From: Patescibacteria group bacterium
GTDB lineage: Bacteria; Patescibacteriota; Microgenomatia; Woykebacterales; 2-01-FULL-43-14
Reading direction: 5' to 3'
Length of the DNA stretch: 37,636 nt
Assembly: GCA_023485445.1 (NCBI GenBank)
Contig: JAMCZT010000012.1
Location: 1-37,636 of the forward strand
Shown here: piece after piece, positions 8,252 to 37,479 of the stretch
Layout: every line of letters begins with the position of its first letter
Position numbering within the stretch: position 1 is the stretch's first letter
Translations under genes and position numbers: made by a program
The notes under the pieces: generated by a model
Seen by the model: only the letters and a program-made list of their open reading frames with translations
What the model was told of the DNA's origin: nothing
Database searches by the model: none

Positions 8252-8803
8252 ATGTATCCAATTTGGATTGTTCTTGGGGTCGTTGTTCTGTTATTCTTGT
8301 TTGTTTGGTTTCTTTACAACAATTTGATCACAGCCAGAATGCGTGTCCAGGAGGCTTGGTCAGGAATAGACGTCCAACTAAAAAGGCGTTCTAGTCTAAT
8401 TCCTAATCTAGTGGAAACCGTTAAAGGTTACGCCTCACACGAGAAGGAAGTGTTTGAAAACGTGACCAAAGCCAGGTCGGCCCTGATGGGCGCTTCGAAC
8501 GCGACAGCGGCAGCCGAAGCGAATAACCAATTAACCGGTGCGTTGAAATCGCTCTTTGCTGTGGCCGAGAACTATCCTGATTTGAAAGCCTCTGAAAATT
8601 TCAGACAGCTTCAAGAAGAGCTTTTCGACACAGAAAGCAAGATTGCCTATGCCAGACAGTTTTATAACTCAAACGTATTGGATTACAACACCAAGATTCA
8701 AGTTTTTCCGAACGTTTTGCTGGCAAACAACCTTGGTTTTAAGCCCGCTGATTTCTTTGCTGCAACTGAAGAGGAAAAGAAGGACATAGAAGTTAAGTTT
8801 TGA
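8252..8803 (+). CDS. lemA: LemA family protein
   Basis: N-terminal TM then [51 protein letters not shown] before ATG 8252. Confidence 0.93.
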
Positions 8804-8858
8804 TTCGTATTAAAGAGCTTTAAAAAGTAATGTTAGTTAGGATAAAAAATGCGACCAA

Positions 8859-8891
8859 CTAATTCAAAAGGCAGTTAAAGTTTTGAATTAG
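8859..8891 (+). repeat. Perfect 11-bp inverted repeat upstream of htpX
   Basis: CTAATTCAAAA (8859-8869)/TTTTGAATTAG (8881-8891). Confidence 0.6.
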
Positions 8892-8917
8892 GCGGGCTTT
8901 GTATTTTTGAATTTTTT

Positions 8918-9829
8918 ATGTCTGTACCAACGATTTATAACCAAATCAGTGCCAACCGGAATAAAAGCTGGTTGATCATGTTTTTATTCACCGCCTTTAT
9001 TTTGATGGTAGGCTATGTTTTTGCTCTGGCTTTAGGTTACCAAGGGCCGGGGGCACTGGGAATAGTGGGTTTTGCTCTGGTTTTCGCGGGGCTGATGAAT
9101 CTAGTTTCCTATTATTTTTCTGACCAGGTGGTTATTGCTTTATCAGGAGCAAAGCAGATCAAGGAAGGAGACGCCCAAGAGCTTTACCATCTTGTTGAGA
9201 ATTTATCAATCGGCGCTGGATTGCCAATGCCGAAGGTTTATATTATTGAGGACGATGCGCCAAACGCTTTTGCTACAGGTCGAGATCCGAAACACGCCGC
9301 TTTAGCCGTGACGACAGGCCTACTAGCTATAATGGATAAACTAGAGTTGGAGGGGGTGGTTGCCCACGAACTTTCCCACATTAAAAATTATGACACTCGG
9401 TTGATGGCAGTGGTGGTGGTCTTGGTTGGTCTAGTGGCAATCTTGGCGGACATATTTCTAAGGATTACTTGGTTTGGCGGGCGCGACCGTGAGGAAAATA
9501 AAGGCAGCGGAATTATTTTCGTGGCGGCGATTATTTTAGCTATTTTAGCTCCGATCGTTGCTCAGTTGATCAAGTTAGCGATTTCCAGACGAAGGGAGTT
9601 TTTGGCTGATGCCTCAGGAGCGCTGCTAACGCGATACCCCGAAGGGCTAGCCAATGCTTTGCTCAAAATTGGTTCTTACAATAAGCCTATGGCAAATGCA
9701 AGCACGGCAACCGCTCATCTTTATATTTCAAACCCCTTTAAAGATAAAAAGGCAGCGTCTTGGTTTGTAAATTTATTTAACACCCATCCCCCCATTGAAG
9801 AACGGGTTGCGGCTTTGAGAGCAATGTAA
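8918..9829 (+). CDS. htpX: HtpX-like membrane M48 metalloprotease
   Basis: HELSHIKNYD zinc motif, multiple TM segments, adjacent to lemA. Confidence 0.93.
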   Translation: MSVPTIYNQISANRNKSWLIMFLFTAFILMVGYVFALALGYQGPGALGIVGFALVFAGLMNLVSYYFSDQVVIALSGAKQIKEGDAQELYHLVENLSIGAGLPMPKVYIIEDDAPNAFATGRDPKHAALAVTTGLLAIMDKLELEGVVAHELSHIKNYDTRLMAVVVVLVGLVAILADIFLRITWFGGRDREENKGSGIIFVAAIILAILAPIVAQLIKLAISRRREFLADASGALLTRYPEGLANALLKIGSYNKPMANASTATAHLYISNPFKDKKAASWFVNLFNTHPPIEERVAALRAM

Positions 9830-9845
9830 ACAAAAGGAGTAAAAA

Positions 9846-10139
9846 TTGGCGATTCAGAAAACACAAGTGCAGCATGTGGCCGAGTTGGCTCAACTGAAGT
9901 TAACCTCGTCAGAGTTGGAAAAATATACGAAACAGTTGTCTGAAATTATTGACTATGACATGGGTTTATTAAATAAGATCGAAACGGACGGGATCGAGCC
10001 AACCGCCCAGGTGACGGGTTTGGAAGACGTGACGCAAAACGACAATCCGAGGCCTTCTTTGGATCAAAAAGAAGCTTTGAAGAATGTTCCTGAAACGGAA
10101 GAGGGGTACTTTAAGACAGGGGTTATCTTGGAACAATAA
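9846..10139 (+). CDS. gatC: Asp/Glu-tRNA(Asn/Gln) amidotransferase subunit C
   Basis: 97 aa GatC-like sequence ([31 protein letters not shown]), immediately upstream of gatA. Confidence 0.9.
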
Positions 10140-30345: not shown

Positions 30346-30420
30346 GGGCCCGTAGCTCAATGGTAGAGCGACAGCCTTTTAAGCTGTGCGTTGAGGGTTC
30401 GAATCCCCCCGGGCTCACCA
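30346..30420 (+). tRNA. tRNA-Lys (anticodon TTT), CCA encoded
   Basis: GGGCCCG/CGGGCTC acceptor; anticodon loop CTTTTAA in ACAGC/GCTGT; T-arm GGGTTCGAATCCC. Confidence 0.95.
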
Positions 30421-31916
30421 GATAGTGTTAAAACAGACTGGGGATTAGATTGATATAACGAGCTAAATGGAACTTTCCATTTTATGTCAACTATATTTCT
30501 GTCGTCTACAATTAAGGTTTCAAAAAAAGCCTTATGGTACATAAGGCGAGTTGGAGTATCAGAAACTTTATAGAGCTTGTAGAGATTTCCTAACACTTCT
30601 ACAGTTTTATTTAAGGCCACCAGATTAGCGTGGTCGTCATCTTGTATTTCTTTAAGTCTTACATTGGCTAAATCCAAGTCCCTTTGAATTAGTTGAAGTT
30701 TTCCATAGCACAAGTCTTTATCAATTAACCCTTCTAACCTGTCATCAAGTAACTTTTGCTGCTGTTCCTCAAGTTTTGCGATCTTGGCTCTCAAAGCCCG
30801 TCTTTCGTTACCAACTCCTTGCGTTCTGTTTTCCTCCATCTGTTTTATCTGCAATTTGGCCAAAGAAATAAGCTCTTCCGATAACTGCATATGTTTGAAA
30901 AGTTGCATCACCTGATCTTGAATTACTTTATCCGGTACCATTTTTTGAACACAATGTAAGCCGTAACGAGCAGCAGAACTGCAACGATAATAGGAAAACC
31001 TGCCTTGCTTGTGGGTCTCAGCTACATAGTGTCTGCCACACTTAGCACAAGTTAAAATCCCCCTTAAAGAGAAACGATATTTAATATCTTTCGAGGTATT
31101 TTTCTTTCTTAACGCTAAAACGTCCTGTACTCTGTAAAAAAGTTCCGGAGAAACTAAAGGTTCATGAGTGCCCATCATTGTATTTCCGCCCCATTCCATA
31201 TATCCCATGTAGAATTTATTTTGGAGCATGTGTTTAACATTGCTGGGAGTAAGAGTTTTACCAGTCCTGGATTTAAACCCAATCTTTTTTAATTCATCGG
31301 CGGTAGCATTTAGAGTAAATTTAGTAGTAGCAAAAAGCCTAAATATCTTTTGGATCATTGGACCGCGAACAGGGTCAACCTCAACTGTTTTTACTAAAGT
31401 CCCGTCTTCATTTGGTTCTTTTTTATTGATATATCCAAGCGGGGCTACTGTTGGCCAACGGCCTTTTTTAAATGCTTGTGTCATACCCTTTTTAACCTCC
31501 TGTCCAAGGTTGGCAGAATAGAACTCGGCAACTGAAGCCATAATATTTTCTAACAGATGACCTGTTGGGCTATCGTCAACCGGTTCTACTACTGATACTA
31601 ATTGTACATCATGTTTTTTAAGAATTGTACGGATAGCTGCATGATCGCCCACATTACGAGCTAGTCTATCTATCTTATGAACTATAATCATCTCAACATT
31701 TTTATCTTTTTTGCATCGGCTCAACATTTCTTGAAGCGCTGGGCGGTTAGCGCTTCTTGCAGATTCTCCGGCGTCTATATAAATGTCTTTCTCTTGGTCA
31801 ACTTGCCATTGCTTTAATTCTGCGTATTTCAAGCAGGCTTCCTTTTGAGCAGGAATAGACAGGCCTTTATCGGCTTGCTCATCAGTTGATACCCTAAGAT
31901 AGATTAAAGCTCTCAT
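30357..31916 (-). CDS. Large serine recombinase (integrase), C-terminus overlapping antisense tRNA-Lys
   Basis: LIYLRVSTDEQADKGLSIPAQ, HKIDRLARN, recombinase domain, CAKCGRHYVAETH zinc ribbon; the last ~20 residues (GEPGGIRTLNAQLKRLSLYH) are antisense tRNA. Confidence 0.92.
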   Translation of the reverse strand: MRALIYLRVSTDEQADKGLSIPAQKEACLKYAELKQWQVDQEKDIYIDAGESARSANRPALQEMLSRCKKDKNVEMIIVHKIDRLARNVGDHAAIRTILKKHDVQLVSVVEPVDDSPTGHLLENIMASVAEFYSANLGQEVKKGMTQAFKKGRWPTVAPLGYINKKEPNEDGTLVKTVEVDPVRGPMIQKIFRLFATTKFTLNATADELKKIGFKSRTGKTLTPSNVKHMLQNKFYMGYMEWGGNTMMGTHEPLVSPELFYRVQDVLALRKKNTSKDIKYRFSLRGILTCAKCGRHYVAETHKQGRFSYYRCSSAARYGLHCVQKMVPDKVIQDQVMQLFKHMQLSEELISLAKLQIKQMEENRTQGVGNERRALRAKIAKLEEQQQKLLDDRLEGLIDKDLCYGKLQLIQRDLDLANVRLKEIQDDDHANLVALNKTVEVLGNLYKLYKVSDTPTRLMYHKAFFETLIVDDRNIVDIKWKVPFSSLYQSNPQSVLTLSGEPGGIRTLNAQLKRLSLYH

Positions 31917-32061: not shown

Positions 32062-32691
32062 CTAGTAAGGCTTCCATAAATCTTCCTCTCTTTTCTTGAT
32101 AATCTTGTAAAACTTATCTTCTGAACGATTGTATTTTCGATAAATTGCCCCACAAACCATATCGGCAAGCTGTAGTAAATTATTACTTTTTGAATCCTGG
32201 TGTTTTAGTCTTCCGATAATCTTTTCTATATTTGTATTCAGCCTTTTTCTTAGATATCCATTAAAATCATCAACAAAGGATTTCGAAATACGGTCTATAA
32301 AAATGGAAGCATTTTTCATTCTCGATTCTGCTCTCAAAAATAGATGGTCGGCAACAATCATATAAAGACTGTCTTTAGGATATATCGGGTTCTGTTTAGC
32401 AAGGATTGCTTTATCAACAATCACAGTTCTATAGCGGAAATTAAATTTTGATAGTTTTTGTAAGAAGGCCTTTTTATACTTATCAGATGTACCGGTGCTA
32501 AATTTAAACTCAAAGTTTTCCGGGAGTTTTAACTCTTTGCGGATTTCTTTTACTGCCTCATTTGCTTTTTCCGCATCAGCCAAGCTATCGAAAATAATGA
32601 TAACTAAAACAAAAAACCTACTGGAAGTTTTACTGAACTTAAATCCAGTATCACCGGACTCATCCATAAAAATTAACATTGCGATTGCCAT
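32062..32691 (-). CDS. DUF3800-like protein
   Basis: N-terminal LIFMDESGDTGFKF and later LLQLADMVCGAIYRKY. Confidence 0.85.
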   Translation of the reverse strand: MAIAMLIFMDESGDTGFKFSKTSSRFFVLVIIIFDSLADAEKANEAVKEIRKELKLPENFEFKFSTGTSDKYKKAFLQKLSKFNFRYRTVIVDKAILAKQNPIYPKDSLYMIVADHLFLRAESRMKNASIFIDRISKSFVDDFNGYLRKRLNTNIEKIIGRLKHQDSKSNNLLQLADMVCGAIYRKYNRSEDKFYKIIKKREEDLWKPY

Positions 32692-33134
32692 TATTTTTCC
32701 CCCCGTAAAATTTCTAAACGATATTTAACCAATTCTTCCGTAACGCAAAAGCGATCTGATAATTCACGTATTGAAAGATTGATTAAGGGTTTTATAAGTT
32801 TTTCAGGGATTAAAAGTTCAGCTGCAAAGGCTTGCGCTTCACATTCCTGCTTAAAGGTTACAAATTGATCGTGGGTTTCAAAATATAAATGATTTCCTTC
32901 GTGCAAAAAATGATGTCCGAGTGCATGGGCTATTAGTTCTCGTCTTTTCTTTACTCCAACAGTATTTTGGATACCAATACTGTCTCCCAAGTAGGCTTCT
33001 TTAATCCGTCCGGAAAAATGCCAGTCGTCCAGGCAGATCCGCTCACGCTTAATAATTTTTTCTATGTTTATTGGGGCAGAGGAAAGTTTATTTTGTTGTA
33101 AAATTTCCTTAGCCCTTTTTAGGGCCTTTTTCAT
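32691..33134 (-). CDS. ImmA/IrrE-family metallopeptidase-like protein
   Basis: RELIAHALGHHFLHEGNHLYF (HxxxH-type) and ECEAQAFAAELLIPE. Confidence 0.85.
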   Translation of the reverse strand: MKKALKRAKEILQQNKLSSAPINIEKIIKRERICLDDWHFSGRIKEAYLGDSIGIQNTVGVKKRRELIAHALGHHFLHEGNHLYFETHDQFVTFKQECEAQAFAAELLIPEKLIKPLINLSIRELSDRFCVTEELVKYRLEILRGEK

Positions 33135-33570
33135 ACTTTTTCCTTCGTGACTTAACGAAGTCTATATAATCAAGCAAAGACTGCTTCTCATCATCCGTCA
33201 TTTTAGGGACTTCTTTTAACATTAAAGTAAAAGCCACGTCTTCTTCTATTTTAGGTCGCTTGCTATCCAGATAACCAGCTTTCTCAAAGATTATTTCATG
33301 GTCAACATTGTAAATTAAGGCAAGAGTGCCTAATATCACCGGAGAAGGACGACTGACACGGCGACTTTCGATATTGGAGATATAAGCGTAGGAGATAAGA
33401 CCTTCTTTTTTTATAACGCCTTTCTTGTAAAGTTTCTTAGCTTCTTCTTCAACATCCCTCATGCTTAGATGGCGGAGCTTTCGGAGAAAATAAACATAAT
33501 CTGCTAAATCGCGGAATTCTTCAGGACTTCTCAAAGGTGATTGCTTTATTTCTTTTGCCTTTTTTCTCAT
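33109..33570 (-). CDS. XRE-family HTH regulator
   Basis: LRKLRHLSMRDVEEEAKKL...GLISYAYISNIESRRVSRPSPVILGTLALIYNVD; overlaps the ImmA/IrrE gene. Confidence 0.85.
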   Translation of the reverse strand: MRKKAKEIKQSPLRSPEEFRDLADYVYFLRKLRHLSMRDVEEEAKKLYKKGVIKKEGLISYAYISNIESRRVSRPSPVILGTLALIYNVDHEIIFEKAGYLDSKRPKIEEDVAFTLMLKEVPKMTDDEKQSLLDYIDFVKSRRKKYEKGPKKG

Positions 33571-35119: not shown

Positions 35120-35330
35120 GGCAGGTCGCTGGGGGTTTGCATGGTGGGAGCGACCAAAAGAGAGTGGTGCAATTCCCTCCGGGAGCTGAGAGGTTAAAAC
35201 CTCAAAGCTCTTTAAGTCTCACCAGCCGTTCGGCGAGAAACTAACCCAGACGGGATAGGAAAGCAAAAACTTTCCTCGCAGGCGGTCTCCTAGCCTCATT
35301 TCGGCGTTAATGGGGTTAGGGGGACCGTTT
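35120..35330 (+). ncRNA. Compact structured RNA candidate with possible pseudoknot
   Basis: Stems GGTCGCT/AGCGACC (35124-35130/35149-35155), GAGCT/AGCTC, GAGGTT/AACCTC, GCCG/CGGC, GGAAAG/CTTTCC, CTAACCC/GGGTTAG (35241-35247/35313-35319) crossing CGGTC/GACCG (35283-35287/35323-35327). Confidence 0.6.
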
Positions 35331-35447
35331 GCTTAAAATCTACCCTCCAGGATAGAAATAAACAAAGTTTTTCTAACGAATAAAAAAATATAACGCCAAA
35401 AATAAACAAGTTTTAACTATGGTAAGTAATTGTAAGTTTAAGTCATT

Positions 35448-36567
35448 TATAATCGGCAACGATAAAAAATTTCAGCGCGGGCAGTAAGCCTAGTTTAACA
35501 GATTGAGGTTCGTCCCGCGCAACATCGGAAGCCAATGGGTGCATGCACTTTGAAATTGTAGGTTATGCTTAGCGCAAGCTCGAAAGCAGGGAAAAACAGA
35601 CGCATTGTGTTTCTTTTTCGGCGGCTGTTGCCTGCCCCCCGAGCGAAGCGCACGAGCCAAAAAGAGGGGGCGCGCTAAGATAACCCTTCGCGATTTATAA
35701 GAGTTTTGGCGCCGCGCCCCCAATAACCCAAGCGAGCGCGAAGTAGACCTTAGTATTAAAAGATAAGCGCGAGCGCCCACAGGATCAGTGTCAAGGTTGG
35801 CGCACGGGTACAAAGGTTGAGTTTCCACAAGCCTATCGACGGCGAGGGGGGCTCCCCCCGCAAGCAGGTAAGCGACCAGAGGGAGCGCCCCTGCGCAGAA
35901 GGGGGGAAACCGACAAGGAGCGAAGCGACGCGGAGGAGAGGGGAAAAGGCACACCCCCGCGTAGGCAGGCGGTACTAAACCACCCTAAAAGGTAGCCGTC
36001 CCGCCGAAGAGGTAGGGTTCAAAATAAACTTTTTCGGGCGGCGAGGTAGAGACTGTACCAAGCTATTAGAAAGCAAGGACAAGGGCGAGGCGCCCCCTAG
36101 GGCGCCCTCTCGCCCAGCGAACGAGCACCTTTAAAAATTATGATAAAAGCGAGTGAGCGATAAGCGGGGGTCACAGCCGCCGAAATAGGCGTAGGATGGT
36201 TCAACTCGCACCGAATCCGCTATTGGCGGATTCCACTTCAACGCCGCTAAATACCGGATGAATTACTTCGGGAGAAGTTTTGGTTATTACAAAAAGATAA
36301 TTCTTTTTAGTAATAGTTAGCGGGCGTTGAAACAGAAAGGGATAAAAAAGCGGGCACGGCAAGCGAGCGAAGACCGCAAGAGATGGAGCGAGCGCGCCAG
36401 AAAGAGCAACGGAAACAGGAAATCATGGGAATTGGAGGCGACGAGTTGGAGAAATTGAGGCTCCGACGAGCCGCCGAATAAGCGAAGCAGCGGGAGGTAC
36501 AGGGTTCCCGCTGCGTAGCGTCAGAGAAAGGGAAAAAAAGCGACTATAGATTATCGCCCGCTTTTTT
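35448..36567 (+). ncRNA. Large ORF-free, hairpin-dense segment; candidate large structured RNA
   Basis: TATAAT at 35448-35453; perfect stems incl. GCGCGGG/CCCGCGC, GGGGGCGCG/CGCGCCCCC, GGGCGAG..CTCGCCC, GAATCCGC/GCGGATTC, CAACGCC/GGCGTTG, GCAGCGGGA/TCCCGCTGC; terminator-like AAAAAAGCG...CGCTTTTTT at 36534-36567. Confidence 0.55.
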
Positions 36568-36576
36568 AAGCGAGAA

Positions 36577-36960
36577 TCCCCCCAAGAGCGTCTCTCCCCC
36601 TAATATGGCGATACATTTGATTAAGGGGGGTTGCCTAGTAAGGGGGTTTTAGGGGGAGAGAGCGGCGGGGGGAACCGAGCGACCCTTTTCTGCTGCCCGA
36701 AACGAGCGAGGCCAGGCACTGCGAAGCGAGGTGAGGGCAGTAATGGTGCGAGTTAGTAGGAATTTGTAAGGGGTTTGGAAACAGTACAGCGGTAGCGAGT
36801 GCCGAAGCTCAAGCGAGGACTGCGAAGCAGGACGAGCGATAAAGCGAGGCACGAGCGTGGGTGTCGAATGAGGTTGGCGACGAATATGCGGTTGGGTGGC
36901 GATTGTGCTTTCGTTAGTAGTATGACGCTGGGGAATTGCGATTGAGTTTGGAAGCGTAAA
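36577..36960 (+). other. Second hairpin-rich non-coding block
   Basis: TCCCCCC/GGGGGGA (36577-36583/36667-36673) around CTCTCCCCCTAA/TTAGGGGGAGAG (36592-36603/36649-36660); CTGCCC/GGGCAG; GTGCC/GGCAC. Confidence 0.5.
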
Positions 36961-36969
36961 AATTTAAAT

Positions 36970-37479
36970 ATGCAAGACTTACAAACAAAAATAATGGTTG
37001 AGAATATCAGTGCTATAGTTACCCCTTTGCCGGGGCGGGCCTTTATTGGAACGATCACAGATTGTGTTCGGCAAGCCAAGGCGAGTATAGATATTATTCA
37101 ATTTGAGTGGAAGTGGTATCACCACGATCACGCTTCAACCATTCAACAACTATCTTATGAAGTCTTGCAAGCCGCAAGGCGCAAAGTTGCAGTTCGGGTG
37201 CTTCTTAATAAAGAACATCCCAGACATCCACTAAATTCGGTTAACAAAAACACTATTTTAAATTTGCAAGAAGCTGGTGCTTTAGCAAAATTTGGTCCAT
37301 CTTCCCCTATTACTCACGCCAAACTTTGGGTTATAGACAAAGAGATTACAGTTTTAGGTTCACATAATTTATCAAGACGGGCTGTAACAGTAAATGATGA
37401 GGCGTCGGTCAAAATTATTTCAAAAGAAATTGCGGGTGAGTTCACCCGTTATTTTGAAGCGCTATGGAATCGACAATAA
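36970..37479 (+). CDS. Phospholipase D-like (HKD) nuclease
   Basis: Single HKD-type motif HAKLWVIDKEITVLGSHNLSRRAVTVNDEASV. Confidence 0.88.
   Translation: MQDLQTKIMVENISAIVTPLPGRAFIGTITDCVRQAKASIDIIQFEWKWYHHDHASTIQQLSYEVLQAARRKVAVRVLLNKEHPRHPLNSVNKNTILNLQEAGALAKFGPSSPITHAKLWVIDKEITVLGSHNLSRRAVTVNDEASVKIISKEIAGEFTRYFEALWNRQ

Follow-up and report, generated by a model that had tools for sequence, protein, structure and literature searches.

Only a small number of very large structured RNAs are known from bacteria, and those solved recently are RNA-only assemblies whose function is unknown. Phages and prophages carry GOLLD, often close to tRNA islands; OLE RNA is linked to partner proteins. 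A homo-oligomeric nanocage is a hallmark of GOLLD, and a very abundant transcript one of ROOL. GOLLD is a large ornate bacterial non-coding RNA (>800 nt in many members) found on mobile DNA, and ROOL, whose studied example has 659 nt, has a multi-helix fold, also occurs on mobile DNA and has no known protein partner; both form RNA-only cages, of unknown function (PMC12286853).

The window considered here, the whole 37,636-nucleotide stretch of contig JAMCZT010000012.1 from a Patescibacteria group bacterium (GCA_023485445.1), contains at ~35.6-36.95 kb a region that we hold, with a probability of about 85%, to be the gene of a large structured non-coding RNA whose family is carried on integrative elements (Table 1). 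Its start may alternatively lie at ~35.45 kb, and it is probably read rightward, on the plus strand. The family is real, new and previously undescribed, and its carrier is not the one that the original prediction had guessed. That prediction had recognised no known RNA here, and none was matched in the window at the Rfam gathering threshold, the models of GOLLD, ROOL, OLE and group I and II introns included; a relaxed search of 34.6-37.1 kb (E≤5) returned sub-threshold microRNA matches only, and seven homologue loci searched at E≤1 gave no family and one sub-threshold chance match. As a large ornate non-coding RNA on mobile DNA the new RNA resembles GOLLD, but in the absence of a covariance match it is analogous, not homologous; where GOLLD is found on phages and prophages, often by tRNA islands, the new RNA matched nothing in the phage collection and is tied to serine-recombinase elements, the one in the window having a single tRNA, at its end. 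With ROOL it shares a similar length, a multi-helix fold, mobile carriage and the lack of a known protein partner, but there is again no covariance match, and motifs and host range are different. OLE is likewise long and ornate; it has partner proteins, whereas the new RNA has no fixed neighbor and no match to the OLE model.

The interval originally proposed, 35448-36567, is indeed structured, but its right boundary was drawn too short: the structured region runs past 36567, with good support to ~36.73 kb and perhaps to 36.95 kb. The window copy, at ~1.35 kb, is the longest member seen; the P1-closed core of its relatives measures ~330-560 nt, and together with the 3' domain their conserved stretch comes to ~600-900 nt. 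That the interval holds no credible ORF also stands, the only one of at least 80 aa lying on the minus strand (35490-35954, GTG start, 154 aa); it is not a conserved gene, because its counterpart in L069, an 87%-identical relative, has just 88 aa. The predicted stems and the TATAAT are all present at their positions, the arm GGGCGCCCTCTCGCCC starting at 36100.

Table 1. Coordinates in the window of the RNA, its parts and its neighbors.
Feature	Position	Strand	Basis
tRNA-Lys(ttt), presumed integration site	30346-30420	+	ARAGORN; in relatives the module follows tRNA-Gly genes
Large serine recombinase (integrase)	30357-31916	-	Pfam Resolvase/Recombinase/Zn_ribbon; PHROG integrase
M78 metallopeptidase (32691-33134) and HTH regulator (33109-33570)	32691-33570	-	Pfam, PADLOC
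TATAAT, candidate -10 box of the window-sublineage leader	35448-35453	+	sequence; weak
5' leader, with hairpin 35475-35481/35514-35520	35456-35612	+	sequence, L069 alignment
P1 5' strand, closing helix, TTTCGGCGGCTGT	35616-35628	+	13-bp pairing with 36173-36185
P1b 5' strand (C-run), pairs with G-run 36166-36170	35635-35639	+	A3 helix 2; window MFE
P2 hairpin, arms 35666-35674 and 35713-35721	35666-35721	+	A3 helix 3; window MFE
Conserved core from which R1 was built: hairpin P5 (G-rich/C-rich), P6, unpaired motif, P7	35931-36115	+	
P6 hairpin, arms 35995-36008 and 36030-36042	35995-36042	+	A3 helix 6
Strongly conserved unpaired motif GAGGTAGAGACTGTA	36043-36057	+	exact or near-exact in relatives
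P7 hairpin GGGCGAGGCGCCCccuaGGGCGCCCUCUCGCCC	36083-36115	+	A3 helices 7 and 8
3' strands of P1b (36166-36170) and P1 (36173-36185)	36166-36185	+	as P1
3' domain	36190-36735	+	fold z; compensatory changes against L069; downstream motifs conserved in relatives
Distal 3' part	36736-36950	+	alignable to L069, which has a large insertion; low confidence
PLD gene, directly after the RNA region	36970-37479		

The motif GAGGTAGAGACTGTA, with CTCTCGCCC ~50 nt behind it, came to light through a BLAST match in a relative, and the same motif and hairpins occur in eight relatives of the window. Window 35931-36115 and seven relatives served to build the covariance model R1, which scores the window at 163.7 bits (by construction) and at E≤0.01 matches 42 of 385 genomes of the class and essentially none in other classes of Patescibacteria. 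Model R2, built from 36 sequences with the window left out, recovers the window over 35924-36170 with 90.5 bits (E 5e-23). Homologues, by which the original prediction proposed to be checked, thus exist: R2 matches 40 of 333 sampled genomes of the class at E≤0.001 (~12%), some with 2-4 copies, and outside the class gives two marginal matches only (E ~1e-3). The carriers include Candidatus Daviesbacteria, Levybacteria, Gottesmanbacteria and Blackburnbacteria, whose class we take to be Microgenomatia (Patescibacteria); because these named relatives carry the same RNA, the host class is assigned as Microgenomatia, within which the family is patchy. No description of this Microgenomatia RNA was found in the literature. 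Searches with the window's DNA sequence, as opposed to its structure, found nothing among 50,697 phage and 72,556 plasmid records, and two motif patterns found no homologues in IMG/VR contigs: all 49 matches to GAGGTAGAGACTGTA there lack the surrounding motifs and are due to chance, and none of the five matches to a G-run pattern has an R1 match. Also rejected were a blastn match in genome G008 (L003), judged to be a chance one inside coding sequence, and, as false, the matches in G656 and G544 and the marginal out-of-class ones (E ~1e-3 or weaker): loci L146 and L147 lack the motifs and score at most 11 bits with R2, and the later matches in G499 and G621 have 21 bits.

In an alignment of 33 sequences (A3), the RNA begins with P1 and its inner C-run/G-run helix, P2, P3 and a variable domain; there follow a conserved GGACA(C/G)..AGGG stretch, the hairpin P5, and P6, which is missing from several members; and after these come the unpaired GGUAGAGACUGUA..UAGAAA, the hairpin P7 with its CCCCUAGGG apex, and the 3' strand of P1, a helix that brings together both ends of the core. 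This strand is followed by GGGUGGGUGGG in nearly all members, the window sublineage excepted. Farther downstream, relatives have in common a TATAAT-like box, AAAAUCGCGCGC, GCAAAAAAUAC, GAGCGAGGCCGAAGGCCGAGCG and, as the terminal element, GUUCGAA; the conserved region thus exceeds the core. About 30 nt from where the 3' strand of P1 begins, nearly all relatives (for example L125, L126 and L137) also show a near-invariant triple G-run, GGGTGGGTGGG, which is missing in the window and L069 and is possibly part of a G-quadruplex or an intermolecular contact.

The helices covary. Over the 59 pairs of A3 the covariation is 0.248, against 0.05-0.09 with partners slid by 1-3 columns (a control that keeps relatedness, although it tends to be exceeded when the structure comes from a part of the aligned sequences) and 0.096 when shuffled (a control inflated by relatedness); compensatory changes occur in 34 pairs, and double-change cells number 189, against 54-81 with slid partners. 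P1, P2, P3, P6 and P7 all lie far above slid and shuffled controls, with compensatory changes in six pairs of P1 and seven of P6, double changes in five of P2, and covariation in all six inner pairs of P7, where 96.5% of cells are paired. The strands of P1 pair with their own partners better than with permuted ones (p = 1.5e-4, with the window pair misregistered by three), as seen in UUUCGGCGGCUGU/ACAGCCGCCGAAA in the window, UUGUCGCGGU/GCCGCGACAA in L110 and UGUGCUCCU/AGGAGCACA in L141. The window MFE fold alone forms P1, P2, P6 and P7; the fold of window 35606-36210 has -233 kcal/mol and, relative to dinucleotide shuffles, a z of -2.85, and that of the 3' part, 36190-36960, a z of -4.30. The covariation by which the original prediction was to be judged is therefore present, in two of its own stems (35666/35713, now P2, and 36083-36115, now P7) among others, and a long non-coding region with a covarying multi-helix structure is one mark of a large ornate non-coding RNA of a mobile element. 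With homologues found, helices covarying and Rfam models silent, its central reading is supported. GC-rich repeats such as GAGCGAAGCG might suggest intergenic DNA that is decayed or of low complexity, its GC-rich stems arising by chance, a reading left with a negligible probability by homologues in many genera, by the covariation, and by conservation above the neighboring genes; between window and L069 the RNA regions are 91-94% identical, the coding neighbors 80-89%.

The large structured RNA includes a 3' domain, composed of the hairpins 36213-36233 and 36487-36514, both predicted at the outset and retained in L069, and of the helices 36343-36355/36556-36568 and 36591-36603/36649-36661, in which window and L069 differ by compensatory changes (such as GCGGGC/GCCCGC to GCAGGU/GCCUGC and GUCUCUCC/GGAGAGAG to GUUCUUCC/GGAAGAAG); it also holds GACTATAGATTATCGCCCGC, resembling a box conserved in relatives. 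The first of these helices is long-range, with 13 bp and perfect. It claims the 3' arm of AAAAAAGCG..CGCTTTTTT (36534-36567), originally proposed as the terminator, and the compensatory changes against L069 identify this arm as part of an internal helix; a terminator scan of the plus strand of the window found nothing. At the other end, the TATAAT at 35448 is present and conserved in L069, where TTTATAATCGGC is preserved while the AT-rich flank has diverged, but it has no matching -35 box; the 5' leader is confined to the window sublineage (window, L069, L072). No sigma-70 promoter was found on the plus strand of the window, and a search for -10 boxes upstream of P1 across loci gave no clear peak. 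In several copies the 3' domain is preceded by an extended -10-like TGGTATAAT, for which reason it may be a separate transcript. As to the strand, the purine richness of the plus strand (AT skew 0.29) favors the rightward reading; fold energies barely separate the strands, as the minus strand of 35606-36210 folds with a z of -2.37, and neither they nor the wobble counts in well-supported pairs (37 G-U vs 31 A-C) decide.

From 30.3 kb rightward the window is occupied by an integrative element, with the order tRNA-Lys, large serine recombinase, DUF3800, M78 protease with HTH regulator (a pair that may be ImmA/ImmR-like), M23-LysM enzyme, 142-aa protein, RNA region and PLD-family protein. The recombinase, whose gene overlaps the tRNA-Lys with its 3' end, is the sole PF07508 match in the genome assembly (0.9 Mb), and it lies near the RNA. 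Among all loci, 21 of 44 RNA copies have a PF07508 recombinase no farther than 11 kb away, where 2.8 ± 1.6 are expected from recombinase density with contig ends ignored. A segment of 9.5 kb is 99.8% identical between L069 and L072, whose genomes belong to different families; in each it begins at the 3' end of a tRNA-Gly gene, and the two tRNA-Gly genes differ, which fits a recent transfer of the element. A binning error, though conceivable, would not explain the differing tRNA junctions. The RNA is thus cargo of large-serine-recombinase integrative elements beside tRNA genes: the mobile element originally suspected is borne out, but it does not look like a typical phage. The recombinase 3' end overlaps the adjoining tRNA also in L069 (4277-4351) and L072 (4291-4364; both in oriented coordinates), and as closely related elements follow tRNA-Gly(gcc), tRNA-Gly(ccc) and tRNA-Lys(ttt), their tRNA targets may shift. 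In L071 (5232-8633, G011:C1) the serine recombinase ORF is unusually long (1133 aa), and its recombinase domains lie in the C-terminal third. An element is not apparent around every copy: about half lack an integrase within 11 kb, many of them on short contigs and others beside housekeeping genes, four of them adjoining the rpsI end of the ribosomal-protein operon, so that some copies may be residents or remnants.

The linkage to integrases, together with wobble counts that leave the strand unassigned and repeated palindromes flanking the core at many loci, could point to a structure at the DNA level, such as an origin of transfer or replication or a recombination site folding as single-stranded DNA. 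This is distinctly improbable: known oriT and att sites are far shorter and less multi-branched than the RNA, and serine-integrase sites are short; the RNA has long conserved unpaired stretches; RNA copies lie kilobases away from the integrase; and the covariation includes a helix whose strands are several hundred nt apart. A long cis-regulatory leader, riboswitch or regulatory RNA for the downstream gene might be suggested by the PLD gene directly following the RNA in the window; as the downstream genes vary between loci in family and strand, we consider this very improbable. No conserved neighbor or partner protein was found at RNA loci, the neighbors being diverse. A new type of large ribozyme or self-splicing, mobile intron-like RNA would agree with the size, purine-rich invariant loops, multi-domain fold and patchy, multi-copy distribution, and group I and II introns are likewise large folded RNAs spread on mobile DNA; this too is unlikely, as no Rfam intron or ribozyme model matches at relaxed thresholds, the copies are intergenic in the loci examined, no intron-encoded protein is seen, and there is no reverse transcriptase among the families recurrent beside the RNA. 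A reading by eye of TTGCGG..CCGCAACGGCAG and AGAGACTGTA as the P/Q/R/S elements of a group I intron was rejected, having no Rfam match and leaving the R-like strand without a partner.

Several other structures accompany the RNA. Just upstream of it in the window, at 35120-35345, lies a second, separate structured RNA candidate (z -5.02), which is 95% identical to L069, above the flanking genes, and has no Rfam match; it is also present in genomes G298, G279 and G320 (G320:C22:16236-16459, 10 nt before the contig end) and searches of 20 other RNA-bearing genomes did not find it. In L142 (~8510-9960, G320:C5) a Tn5-like transposase insertion splits one copy of the large RNA within its P7 apex, and the two halves can still be recognised. 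Upstream of the RNA in L067, L073, L137 and L145 there recurs an island with, in this order, a 970-1362-aa adhesin-like protein, a TrpR-like small protein, a small membrane-like protein and an M23 peptidase or a nuclease. The palindromes, either a long TCGGCC-N15-GGCCGA or, at other loci, CCACAA/TTGTGG or ACCGT/ACGGT, occur at ~-220 to -320 from the core (L070, L073, L111, L115, L122, L128, L132) or ~+375 to +417 (L067, L137, L138, L145); within the 10-20 kb loci they lie mostly beside the RNA, and they may be likened to operators or small hairpin elements.

As a stand-alone ornate RNA, the molecule would be transcribed rightward and act in trans, as RNA, rather than through any fixed partner protein from an adjacent gene. 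It is possible, and we propose it tentatively, that it serves the element as a compact scaffold or RNP core, perhaps multimeric like GOLLD and ROOL, which it resembles in size, conserved purine loops, mobile carriage and absence of a fixed protein; it would be used in the life cycle of the element, and its purine-rich conserved loops would make tertiary or intermolecular contacts. More doubtful is a catalytic or cage-forming RNA machine for excision, transfer or packaging, working alongside the serine integrase, of a type known in no element. As an unrelated new family on integrative elements, the RNA offers an independent case for what large RNAs do for mobile DNA, in uncultured, ultra-small bacteria with reduced genomes and with dozens of natural variants already in hand.
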